This document shows, one piece after another, positions 15,704 to 22,536 of a stretch of 64,000 nt of DNA. Where the stretch lies: contig NZ_MIJB01000032.1 in the NCBI RefSeq assembly GCF_002174305.1, forward strand, positions 62,001-126,000, given 5' to 3'. The notes under the pieces were generated by a model. That model saw only the letters and a program-made list of their open reading frames with translations, did no database searches and had not been told where the DNA came from. Positions within the stretch are counted from its first letter, which is position 1. The number at the start of each line of letters is the position of its first letter. The position numbers were made by a program, and so were the translations under genes. Source of the DNA: Aeromicrobium sp. PE09-221. Lineage in GTDB: Bacteria > Actinomycetota > Actinomycetes > Propionibacteriales > Nocardioidaceae.

Positions 15704-17902
15704 TCAGGGTGAGACCGCGCGCAGCTCCCCGTCGCGATGGACGATCGCGACATCGCCGAGCTCGTCGGTGCGCCAGGCGCGGATGCCCGCATCGCGAAGG
15801 ATGTCCAGGGAACGGCGCGTCGGATGTCCGTAGTCGTTCTGTCCGACACTCACGGTCGCCGCCACCGCCCCCGTCTCCTCGTGGAACCGCGCCGACTGGT
15901 CGGCGCTGCCGTGATGCGGCACCTTGAGGATGTCGGCGGTGACATCCTCGCGCGCGGCCACCCGCGCCTGCGTCCGCTCACCGAGATCACCGGTGAACAG
16001 CACCCGCACTCCCTTGATCGTGAAGCGTTGCACGAGGCTCGCATCATTACGGTCGGCGGCACGATGATCCGTATCGGGCCAGAGCGTCTCGATCTCGACA
16101 TCACCGACCGTGACGGACTCCCCTGAGCCGGGTGTGGAGCGTGGGACATCGGGGAGCTCCGGCCCACCGGAAGGACCGACCATCACCTCCTCGACCTCGC
16201 GCCCGCGCACCGCTCCCCGCCAGCCCGCTACGTGATCGGCATCGGCATGGCTGAACACCAGCAACCGGATCCGATCGATACCGAGCCGGCGTAGGCATCG
16301 GTCGATCGGCCCCGGGTCCATGCCGGTGTCCACGACGATCGCGTCGCCCTCGCCCAGCGGTACGACACTCGCATCGCCCTGGCCCACATCGCACGCCACC
16401 ACGATGACCTCGTCAGGTGGCCAACCCGTCTGCGGAGGCCGGACGATCGCCACCAGCAGACCCAGCGACAATCCGACCGCCAGCACGGGACGGCTGAGCA
16501 CCGCCAGCATGATCATCGTGACGACGGGGACGACCAGTACGAGCGACCACCACGGATGCTCCCAGGTGATTGCCGCACCGTCCCAGGAGGCCGACCGCCG
16601 GCCGACCTCGGCGATCCACCAGGCAGCGCCGAAGGCACCCGCACCGATCAGCCGCGCGGCAGGTGCCCACACCAGGTCGGCGAGACCGCCGGTCAATCCC
16701 AGGACTGTCGCCGGGGCGACAGCCGGAGCGGCGGCGACATTCGACACCACGGCGACCAAGGAGACCTCCTCGGAGATCGCCGCGACCATCGGCACACAGG
16801 CCAGATGCGCTGCCAAGGGGACCGCGAGCGCCATCGCGCCCCAGGTCGGCAGCCACCGTTCCAGGCGCCGCGTGAACAAGGGCCCCAGCGTGACGATGCC
16901 CGTGGTGGCACACACCGACAGGACGAAGCCCGCGGCACGGCCCATCCACGGATCGATGACGAGGAGGGCGATCACCGCCCAGGCCACCGCCCGCAGGCCG
17001 TCGCGCGTCCCCCATCCCAGGCCGACCACCGCGACCGTGCCCATGACGGCCGCCCGTTGAACGCTCGGCTCGGGTCGCGCCACGAGAACGAACACGACGA
17101 CCGCCAGGAGCGCCGCCGGGATCATCAGGCGCTTGGCGCCGACACCTCGCACGATCAGCAGCACGGCACCGAGGACGATGGTGAGGTTGCTGCCCGATAC
17201 CGCCGTCAGATGTGTCAGACCCGAGCGCCGGAAGTCCTCGCGGAGATCATCGTCGACCGCCGTGACGTCACCCGTGACGAGGGCCGGGACGATCGCGGCC
17301 CCGGGGCCGGGATAAGGGGCGACCGCGGAGCGGACGCCTTCGCGGACGCGCTCGCTCGCCTCCCACCACCAAGCCGCATCCCCGGCCGGTCGCCATCGTT
17401 GGACCGCCAGGGTGCCGACGACATCGGAGTCCTCCGCGGCGGTGATGGTGCCTTCGAGCACCACATGACGTCCGACGACGAGTCCCTCCAGATCGCCCCG
17501 GACGAAGGCCGTCAACCGAGCACGTCCCTCGACCGATCCGCCGCTGCTCCGCGCCCGCTGTGTCGTCAGCTCGACGACCCCCTGATCCCGCTGGGGCCCG
17601 AAGGCGCGCACGTCCTGACGCACCGTGGCCTCGACCGTCACCCAGCGGCCGTCGTCGGCCCAGCCGCGCAGCGGATGCTGTTCCACCGCCGCCATCCGCA
17701 CTCCCGACGACATCGCGACCAGGCCGATCGCCAGAGCGATGACGCCGAGACCCGGTCGGCATCGAAGGAGGACCACCGCCACCAGCGCTGCCGCCACAGC
17801 CACGATCACGACGACCCGACCGGTGCTCGTGACGGCCCAGACCGCCACCGCCCAGACCGCGCAGGCACCGGGCACCATGCGCAGATCGTGGCCTCCCATC
17901 AC
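15704..17902 (-). CDS. comEC: ComEC/Rec2 DNA-uptake channel with C-terminal metallo-beta-lactamase domain
   Basis: Membrane channel for single-stranded DNA import during transformation, 732 residues. Multiple N-terminal membrane segments, an OB-like extracellular region (about 80-190), the competence domain with HLTAVSGSNLTIVLG, and a C-terminal metallo-beta-lactamase domain with VFSHADADHVAGWRG and VPHHGSADQ, so it has the full-length domain order. Overlaps comEA by 4 bp (ATGA). Natural competence of the organism is not proven by this gene, which is widespread in non-competent actinomycetes. Confidence 0.95.
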   Translation of the reverse strand: MMGGHDLRMVPGACAVWAVAVWAVTSTGRVVVIVAVAAALVAVVLLRCRPGLGVIALAIGLVAMSSGVRMAAVEQHPLRGWADDGRWVTVEATVRQDVRAFGPQRDQGVVELTTQRARSSGGSVEGRARLTAFVRGDLEGLVVGRHVVLEGTITAAEDSDVVGTLAVQRWRPAGDAAWWWEASERVREGVRSAVAPYPGPGAAIVPALVTGDVTAVDDDLREDFRRSGLTHLTAVSGSNLTIVLGAVLLIVRGVGAKRLMIPAALLAVVVFVLVARPEPSVQRAAVMGTVAVVGLGWGTRDGLRAVAWAVIALLVIDPWMGRAAGFVLSVCATTGIVTLGPLFTRRLERWLPTWGAMALAVPLAAHLACVPMVAAISEEVSLVAVVSNVAAAPAVAPATVLGLTGGLADLVWAPAARLIGAGAFGAAWWIAEVGRRSASWDGAAITWEHPWWSLVLVVPVVTMIMLAVLSRPVLAVGLSLGLLVAIVRPPQTGWPPDEVIVVACDVGQGDASVVPLGEGDAIVVDTGMDPGPIDRCLRRLGIDRIRLLVFSHADADHVAGWRGAVRGREVEEVMVGPSGGPELPDVPRSTPGSGESVTVGDVEIETLWPDTDHRAADRNDASLVQRFTIKGVRVLFTGDLGERTQARVAAREDVTADILKVPHHGSADQSARFHEETGAVAATVSVGQNDYGHPTRRSLDILRDAGIRAWRTDELGDVAIVHRDGELRAVSP

Positions 17903-18681
17903 ACGGTGACCCGGTCGCGGAGGTCAGCCAGCGTCGCCTCTCCGATGCCCTTGACATCGAGCAGGTCCTCCACCGCACGGAAGGGACCGTGATCCGCGCG
18001 ACGGTCGATGATCGCCTGGGCGGTCACAGGCCCGACCCCGGGGAGTTCCTCCAGCGTGGAGGAGTCGGCCGTGTTGATGTTGATCAGCCCGCCGGCACCG
18101 GCCCCCGAAGCGGCCGCTCCCCCCTCGGGCCCGGCGGGAGGACCGCCCACGACGATCTGCTCGCCGTCCTGGATCTCGCGGGCCAGGTTGAGGGTCGACA
18201 GATCCGGCGCCCCCGCCACGCCGCCGGCGGCATCGATCGCCTCGTGCACTCGGCTTCCCGCTGGCACGACGACGATGCCCGGGGTCTGCACCTCGCCGGT
18301 CACATGGATCACCAGCTCCCCGGAGGTCTCGGCCCCGGCCGCGTCCCCGGGGTCCGCCGAACTCTCCGAGGCCCCGACGGAGGCGAGGGGCGCCGGGTCG
18401 TCGACCTCCGCGGGTCGCCCGGCGATCACCCACCACGCGACGAGTACCGCCGCCGCAAGACCGAGAACGGCGACGACGGCGAGGTGGCGATCGCCCCAGC
18501 GCCGTCGCACCGGCCGAGCGTGCCGAGGCTCGGTGTCGTCATCGAGCGTCTCCTCGGACGGATCATCGTCCTCCGCCGGGCTCCAGGTGGCGTCGAAGGC
18601 CGTGGCGAGCTCCGCGAGTCGCCGACGCGCGATCTCGGCACGCGTCTCATCGGGTACTCCCGGAACGATTCTTCTGGCCAC
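17899..18681 (-). CDS. comEA: ComEA family DNA-binding competence protein
   Basis: Cell-surface DNA receptor feeding ComEC, 260 residues. A cytoplasmic acidic N-terminus, one membrane anchor (about 90-112), an SLBB-type domain (VIHVTGEVQTPGIVVVPAGS), a glycine/alanine linker, and a C-terminal helix-hairpin-helix pair (LEELPGVGPVTAQAIID and LLDVKGIGEATLADL). GTG start preceded at 6 nt by TACGGT. First gene of the comEA-comEC operon. Confidence 0.95.
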   Translation of the reverse strand: MARRIVPGVPDETRAEIARRRLAELATAFDATWSPAEDDDPSEETLDDDTEPRHARPVRRRWGDRHLAVVAVLGLAAAVLVAWWVIAGRPAEVDDPAPLASVGASESSADPGDAAGAETSGELVIHVTGEVQTPGIVVVPAGSRVHEAIDAAGGVAGAPDLSTLNLAREIQDGEQIVVGGPPAGPEGGAAASGAGAGGLININTADSSTLEELPGVGPVTAQAIIDRRADHGPFRAVEDLLDVKGIGEATLADLRDRVTV

Positions 18682-18775: not shown

Positions 18776-19618
18776 TCAGCGGCCGGTGACCGTCACGGCG
18801 ATCATGCCCGGGCCGACATGGGCGCCGATATCGGCGCCGACCTCGTCGACGGGCACATCGTCGCGGCCCCAGGCGTCGGCGAGGCGCGCGGCAACGCCCG
18901 CAGCGCGTTCCTCTGCCGCGAGATGCTGCACGCCGGTATCGAAGCCACGGGGGAACCGCTCCGCTGCCTCGATCGCCAGCTCGACCACCCGCGCGAGTGC
19001 CTTGGAGGAGGTCCGCACCTTCTCCAAGGGCACGACTGCTCCATCGGCGACCGTGAGGATCGGTTTGACGGCCAGCGCCGAGCCGATCAGCGCCTGGGCC
19101 GCGCCGATGCGCCCACCGCGCTTGAGGTACTCCAGCGTGTCGACATAGAGCAGGACGGTGGACTGCTGCCCGGCGCGTCGTGCAGCAGCGACGATCTCCG
19201 CACTCGACCCACCCTCATCGCGGATGCGCGCAGCGGCACCCGCGGCGAAGCCCGTGGCGATGCCGACCTGCCCGGTATCGATGATGTGCACCGGCACCTC
19301 GCAGCGCGAGGCCGCGAGTCGAGCCGAATCGATCGTCCCGGAGACGCGCTTGCTCAGATGCACCGACACGATCTCGGTCGCTCCCTCGGCGACGAGACCG
19401 GCATACACCGCCGCGAAGGCCTCCGGGCTCGGGCGAGAGGTGCTGACCGTGGCCCTGTCGCGCAGAGCACCGGCGATCGTCTCGGCGTCGATGTCGACAC
19501 CCTCGGTGTAGACGCGCGATCCGATGACGACCGTCGTGGGCACGACGACGATCCGCTCGCGCTGCGCGTCGCCGGGGTCGAGCGATGCCGTCGAGTCGGT
19601 GACGATGGCGATGCTCAT
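18776..19618 (-). CDS. DegV family fatty-acid-binding protein
   Basis: DegV proteins bind a fatty acid; in Firmicutes, FakB members present it to the FakA kinase. The 280-residue protein has the N-terminal IAIVTDSTASLDP motif, the VSTSRPSPEAFAAVY segment that lines the acyl pocket, SVHLSKRVSGTIDSARLA and YLKRGGRIGAAQALIG. No FakA homologue is visible in the window. The start overlaps the stop of a 9-codon upstream reading frame. Confidence 0.93.
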   Translation of the reverse strand: MSIAIVTDSTASLDPGDAQRERIVVVPTTVVIGSRVYTEGVDIDAETIAGALRDRATVSTSRPSPEAFAAVYAGLVAEGATEIVSVHLSKRVSGTIDSARLAASRCEVPVHIIDTGQVGIATGFAAGAAARIRDEGGSSAEIVAAARRAGQQSTVLLYVDTLEYLKRGGRIGAAQALIGSALAVKPILTVADGAVVPLEKVRTSSKALARVVELAIEAAERFPRGFDTGVQHLAAEERAAGVAARLADAWGRDDVPVDEVGADIGAHVGPGMIAVTVTGR

Positions 19619-19644
19619 GCCGTCGCCCGCCCACGCTCGATCAT
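19615..19644 (-). CDS. putative 9-codon leaderless leader peptide of degV
   Basis: The frame ATG ATC GAG... encodes MIERGRATA and ends in TGA at 19615-19617, which overlaps the degV ATG (19616-19618) as ATGA. Its own ATG is preceded at 6 nt by TAAGGT, the window's usual leaderless signal, while degV itself has no convincing Shine-Dalgarno. Translation of degV may therefore depend on termination at the leader stop. Inference from spacing only. Confidence 0.4.
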   Translation of the reverse strand: MIERGRATA

Positions 19645-19650
19645 GTCGTC

Positions 19651-19656
19651 ACCTTA
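19651..19656 (-). promoter_or_regulatory. -10 box upstream of the degV leader peptide
   Basis: TAAGGT on the minus strand, 6 nt before the leader ATG at 19644. Confidence 0.4.
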
Positions 19657-19689
19657 TCCGTCGCCACCGCCCACCGGAGACGGTGAAGG

Positions 19690-22536
<2,847 letters not shown>

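Follow-up and report, generated by a model that had tools for sequence, protein, structure and literature searches.

A nine-codon upstream frame ending on the degV start in Aeromicrobium, and its probable origin at a former leaderless degV start

Anatomy of the degV locus

How does a ribosome reach degV when its start codon shares bases with the stop codon of a nine-codon frame, and when that small frame is itself predicted to begin at the 5' end of the message? The locus lies in a window of 64,000 nucleotides from Aeromicrobium sp. PE09-221 (the whole stretch of DNA that was analysed), where the minus strand carries, in order, leuS, a 71-nt spacer and degV (19618-18776), which encodes a member of the DegV family of fatty-acid binding proteins. 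The features discussed here, with A. piscarium (L002) as the sister species and A. camelliae/A. phragmitis (L003/L004) as the two nearest relatives of this lineage, are as follows:

18776..19618, minus strand: degV, 280 aa, DegV family (Pfam PF02645, E 7.4e-76)
19615..19618, minus strand: ATGA overlap of the upstream frame's stop and the degV start, retained in L002
19615..19644, minus strand: nine-codon upstream open reading frame (uORF), MIERGRATA then TGA; L002 has MIERGRVNA, of equal length and with an equal overlap
19619..19644, minus strand: 26 nt unique to the window and L002, missing in L003/L004 and in relatives whose degV is directly leaderless; ATGA stands at both ends, so the limits may shift by a few bases
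19649..19654, minus strand: AGGTGA, Shine-Dalgarno (SD)-like sequence ahead of the uORF ATG, sharing bases with the -10 box; pairs at six bases in a row, -8.3 kcal/mol; would serve a transcript starting further upstream
19651..19656, minus strand: TAAGGT, predicted -10 box (TANNNT) of a leaderless promoter; the same box lies 6 nt before degV's own ATG in L003/L004, and 14/82 conserved gene starts form a peak at spacing 6
19690..22536, minus strand: leuS, the upstream neighbour on the same strand; its stop TAG (19692-19690) lies 71 nt before degV

An original prediction had described a TAAGGT box, a gap of 6 nt, an ATG opening MIERGRATA and a TGA overlapping the degV ATG, and both coordinates and reading were confirmed on the minus strand: the six nucleotides between the box (19656-19651) and the uORF ATG (19644-19642) are GACGAC, and the uORF TGA (19617-19615) shares bases with the degV ATG (19618-19616) as ATGA. 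That prediction had missed the overlap of the TAAGGT box with AGGTGA, a six-base SD-like match for the uORF ATG. Pfam model PF02645 spans DegV residues 2-277 at 255.6 bits against a cut-off of 27, placing the protein in its family, and given normal start codons the degV start at 19618 is certain, because the degV frame holds no other ATG, GTG or TTG between the upstream stop and the VTDST motif. We found no second degV start and no TANNNT closer to degV, TAAGGT being the sole TANNNT in the 72 nt before the gene. A search found neither an E. coli-type sigma-70 promoter nor a terminator, a result that says little for this phylum.

A leaderless start displaced by 26 nucleotides

In Mycobacterium tuberculosis, TANNNT -10 boxes are described 7-12 bp upstream of transcription start sites (PMC3898074), and leaderless genes are put near 20% in Actinobacteria (PMC3160421). 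We compared two 170-kb contigs, our own and that of A. piscarium, with genes taken by simple ORF selection without annotation and 82 orthologous pairs defined by at least 60% identity. TANNNT was conserved in both contigs 6 nt before a conserved ATG or GTG at 14 of the 82 pairs and 7 nt before it at three, with every other spacing from 0 to 59 reaching at most 3 of 82. As far as sequence can tell, this spacing-6 peak is the actinobacterial leaderless signature, and TAAGGT, six nucleotides from the A of the uORF ATG, belongs to the same spacing class in contig and genus, the placement of a -10 box for transcription from an RTG (ATG or GTG) codon.

A genome search recovered degV in 47 of 49 Aeromicrobium genomes, and all 47 upstream regions were examined. 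In 36 of them an ATG in the degV frame has a TANNNT box 6-7 nt ahead of it. Measured from the 5'-most ATG (n=47, spacings 0 to 69), 24 genes have the box at spacing 6, 11 at 7 and two at 32; spacings 62, 65 and 68 occur once each, and no other spacing occurs at all. This alignment gives 35 rather than 36 close boxes since L104 has an additional ATG further upstream. The spacing of 32 is exactly 6+26, and its two cases are the window and A. piscarium. The box is absent from nine of the 47 genes (L114, L115, L024, L026, L028, L103, L020, L109 and L111). With TANNNT at 6-7 nt in 36/47, degV in Aeromicrobium is, on predicted promoter placement, normally of the leaderless type, and the displaced start is limited to one small clade. 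Beyond Aeromicrobium, the box stands at 5-8 nt in 32 of 48 scored degV loci (from 69 loci, 15 Aeromicrobium entries were dropped as copies of the genus set, and six of the other 54 lacked the start motif). Our literature search returned no paper on leaderless degV in actinobacteria or on a leaderless Rv2417c, which we take to be an M. tuberculosis degV, and the combination of leaderless and Aeromicrobium gave only an unrelated review.

Other degV starts in the genus vary in their own ways. The degV ATG overlaps the leuS stop in L114 and L115 (TGATG) and in L024 (ATGA), where degV looks to be coupled to leuS, so the start mode of degV appears to shift repeatedly inside one genus. In L029, L100, L102, L105, L108 and L116 a degV start of the leaderless type precedes VTDST by 19-21 codons, which lengthens the N terminus by about 14-16 residues: the in-frame counterpart of the displaced start. 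The degV of L116 (genome G018), included in the count of 47, falls into two frames near residue 146 and is a pseudogene or an assembly error.

The relatives make the origin of the uORF arrangement unusually clear. A degV protein tree (46 sequences, L116 left out) unites the window and L002 with support 96/88 and places them as sister to L003 and L004, the fork of all four having 100/99. In L003 and L004, TAAGGTGACGCC-ATG stands at degV's own start (GTTAAGGTGACGCCATGA in L003 and GATAAGGTGACGCCATGA in L004), and the uORF start in the window and L002 reads GATAAGGTGACGACATGA. The promoter-start 18-mer of the window uORF is identical to L004 at 17 of 18 positions and to L003 at 16, as against 8-13 of 18 for 15 other leaderless-type starts of the same contig and 11-12 of 18 when the same pairs are aligned at the degV start instead. 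Given these controls, the uORF start is most simply read as the former degV start, now separated from the degV code by a gain of 26 nt. The extra 26 nt occur only in the window and A. piscarium, the insertion is by this comparison the derived state, and the arrangement probably arose from a plain leaderless degV when 26 bases were gained immediately after the promoter.

That the uORF start is leaderless, on a predicted promoter, is as the original prediction had it and is well supported by comparison: the sister clade uses an equal promoter-start module for degV itself, the genus at large has TANNNT 6-7 nt ahead of degV, and the 6-nt spacing peaks among conserved gene starts of the contig. The ATGA overlap by itself is ordinary, because an RTG frame ending at it arises in 61% of shuffled spacers (20000 dinucleotide shuffles). 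Such an overlapping frame with TANNNT 6-7 nt before its start arises in 0.35% of 20000 dinucleotide shuffles.

Two other accounts of the 26 nt were considered and set aside. A sequencing frameshift, by which a 27-nt in-frame extension would be misread as 26, was rejected since L002, a separate assembly and species, has the identical 26-nt spacing. Tandem duplication is suggestive at best, with one comparison (L003) pointing there among many tries: the window insert against the pre-degV sequence of L003 gave shuffle P values of 0.016 (24 nt), 0.105 (22) and 0.032 (26), and against L004 0.23-0.41, the L002 insert gave 0.03-0.27 against L003 and 0.23-0.44 against L004, and the 20-mers upstream of the uORF and degV starts are alike at 10/20 positions (P 0.53 and 0.13).

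Conservation of the insert and its peptide

The stop/ATG overlap, whose conservation bears on the original prediction, is retained in L002, but the 26 nt have no counterpart in L003/L004. Between the window and L002 the uORF region is identical at 22 of 26 positions without indels, the promoter-uORF block contains an identical run of 29 nt, and four-fold degenerate sites of degV are 67% identical (122/182). Among 45 non-coding upstream regions, with starts picked by script, the identity of the 26 nt lies mid-range, and the degV upstream ranks 14th by 45-nt identity and 7th by length of run. Conservation was therefore discarded as proof of uORF function, other non-coding upstreams being equally conserved. 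Since the 26 nt are no better conserved than those, the comparison gives no sign of selection on the uORF itself, the second half of which varies. The ATGA linkage is retained with a drifting peptide in both of the two clade species, and the comparison hints weakly that the frame of the uORF may matter.

The original prediction had also left room for control by peptide or codon content, and this found no support. A regulatory leader peptide or attenuator, in which the nine codons would sense a metabolite or translation stress, has an uncommon placement in its favour, along with the leaderless candidate regulatory uORFs, Cys-rich, that are described in mycobacteria (PMC4633059). Against it, two of nine residues differ between MIERGRATA and MIERGRVNA, both near the end, and of the four base changes three are non-synonymous; the uORFs of the window and L002 have no stretch of one residue or of sensor codons, such as an attenuator would carry; and positions 19400-19900 have no Rfam match at gathering score, the one sub-threshold match (E 0.4) lying inside the degV coding sequence. 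The two-species comparison yields no evidence that the peptide is important, and we regard such a role as highly improbable.

Routes to degV translation and known coupled systems

We propose that ancestral degV had a TANNNT promoter placed so that its mRNA would begin at the start codon, and that the common ancestor of A. piscarium and the window species gained a 26-nt segment directly behind this promoter-start module. The old 5'-terminal AUG would then open a nine-codon frame. As 26 is not divisible by three, this frame would run out of phase with degV, and as degV's start reads ATGA, it would end on the degV AUG. By 70S leaderless initiation, ribosomes would load at the 5'-terminal AUG, translate nine codons, stop at UGA and restart at the overlapping degV AUG, while a variable share would initiate directly at degV, whose SD is weak in the window and fair in the sister. 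The peptide would probably be a mere ribosome-delivery device. The anatomy, the genus-wide promoter placement and the derived insertion are read from sequence, and we infer the transcription start, uORF translation and reinitiation. We give leaderless uORF translation with handover to degV at the ATGA overlap a probability of about two in three; the arrangement, carried by only two species, is real and probably functional.

The original prediction held that degV has no good ribosome site of its own. SD strength was scored as the best pairing with the 16S tail GGATCACCTCCTTTCTAAGG, located in the species' own genome (for degV over -17..-4), against 3000 random positions. In the window degV pairs at best with -6.2 kcal/mol, and 13.7% of random positions do as well or better, so the claim holds there; in L002 an SD-like GGGUGA four nucleotides before the degV ATG reaches -8.4 kcal/mol, as do 3.8% of random positions. 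The degV SD is thus poor in the window and fair in the sister, and because the sister's degV has this SD-like site of its own, coupling to the uORF need not be strict, although the original prediction would make degV expression depend on termination-reinitiation.

These values bear on a simpler possibility, that degV is a plain leadered gene with a 26-nt 5' UTR whose G-rich upstream binds 30S subunits directly, the uORF being an incidental leftover without effect. The sister's GGGUGA agrees with this, as do the 61% of shuffles that yield an RTG frame ending at ATGA, the lack of excess conservation in the 26 nt, and a study in E. coli in which many of the reported knock-outs of a 5'-terminal upstream AUG (5'-uAUG) barely changed the downstream gene (PMC4965119). 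The window's weak SD does not, and a 5'-terminal AUG 26 nt ahead would be expected to attract 70S ribosomes that cover the degV start region. Most tested ATGA overlaps were moreover strictly coupled, 13 of 14 overlapping pairs being so in Huber et al. 2019 (PMC6728339). We consider the plain leader unlikely, though the strongest competitor to the handover.

The AGGUGA upstream of the uORF pairs at -8.3 kcal/mol in the window and L002 alike, within the strongest 4% of sites (3.9% of random positions reach it). With this SD-like match the uORF could also be a leadered ORF on a leuS read-through transcript, and a longer transcript would likewise allow its translation. Hence degV might be expressed mainly from leuS read-through or from a promoter inside or before leuS, with TAAGGTGA acting as the uORF Shine-Dalgarno in a leadered, coupled small ORF. 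The leuS stop lies just 71 nt upstream, and we found no terminator-like site. However, the homologous sites of most relatives (TAGGGTTTCGGCC, TAGGCTTCGG and others) retain TANNNT at 6-7 nt and not the SD match, and the leuS-degV spacer of L002 is about 250 nt long with G/C tracts, so that we think this origin of the message quite improbable. Within the L002 spacer, at about 105-210 nt from degV on its upstream side, are a TTTTTT run and long tracts of G and C that the window lacks; they are either a terminator-like insertion or an assembly error.

Handover at the overlap has close parallels, and by analogy with them coupling through ATGA is plausible. With nine codons and ATGA, the uORF falls in the RTGA class of small ORFs (5-50 codons, TGA overlapping the next RTG), for which Shell et al. 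2015 report coupling in 23 of 220 leaderless small ORFs of mycobacteria, as against 32 of 1000 random ones (PMC4633059). As described there, these share with degV a predicted 5'-terminal RTG, a short ORF and a TGA sharing bases with the next gene's RTG, and the linkage is kept while the small-protein sequence need not be; they differ in that transcription starts and ribosome profiling were measured there and are inferred here, and in that the degV case shows an origin from a leaderless main gene, readable from relatives. Some E. coli ORFs opened by a 5'-terminal uAUG, such as the 8-codon uORF of rhaB, likewise have an AUG within a nucleotide of the 5' end, a very short frame and an ATGA overlap, but their main genes are SD-led and the effect of uAUG loss varied by gene: in Beck et al. 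2016 it lowers, raises or scarcely changes the main gene, ptrB falling below 8% (PMC4965119). The out-of-frame uORF of M. tuberculosis PPE2 also overlaps through AUGA a main gene without SD, whose expression in Kipkorir et al. 2024 depends on uORF translation, mostly by termination-reinitiation; that uORF is preceded by an SD and by a structured leader carrying a B12 riboswitch, and nothing alike is present at degV (PMC11260477). Leaderless actinobacterial degV genes share the promoter-start module with TANNNT at spacing 6/7, which in the window is set 26 nt further upstream and starts a different frame.

Whether the arrangement is uncommon, as originally claimed, depends on where one looks: it is rare here, degV being its only case found in both contigs (2 and 1 candidates among 142 and 134 called genes), but M. 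tuberculosis is described as having an enriched class (PMC4633059). Gene 65 of our own contig (16 codons) was rejected as a second coupled case, since its end falls on a TTG candidate start, an internal ATG preceded by GGAGG resembles the true gene start, and no counterpart was found in the other contig. Gene 25, of six codons, stands 32 nt ahead of a gene; it is uncoupled, and the other contig has no orthologue of it.

RTGA-coupled leaderless small ORFs are thus already known from mycobacteria, and the value of this locus is an origin visible in four species, not a new mechanism. We tentatively suggest, as an idea that might well hold but has slightly less than an even chance of doing so, that coupled leaderless small ORFs can arise without peptide selection, by frame-shifting insertion behind a leaderless promoter-start module: the old AUG would keep loading ribosomes, and main-gene starts that read ATGA would provide a stop at no cost in one frame out of three. 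The two-species degV would then be a case caught in the act, and a route of origin for the enriched mycobacterial RTGA class. If so, one short insertion can turn a leaderless gene into a coupled two-ORF unit with expression kept, which would explain common actinobacterial leaderless small ORFs that end on the next start, with no need for peptide function. The four close species, two with the insertion and two without, form a ready natural comparison.

Downstream of degV on the same strand (window 15704-18681) lie a comEA-like gene (SLBB and helix-hairpin-helix) and a gene identified by eye as comEC-like, so that the degV transcript may continue into DNA-uptake genes.
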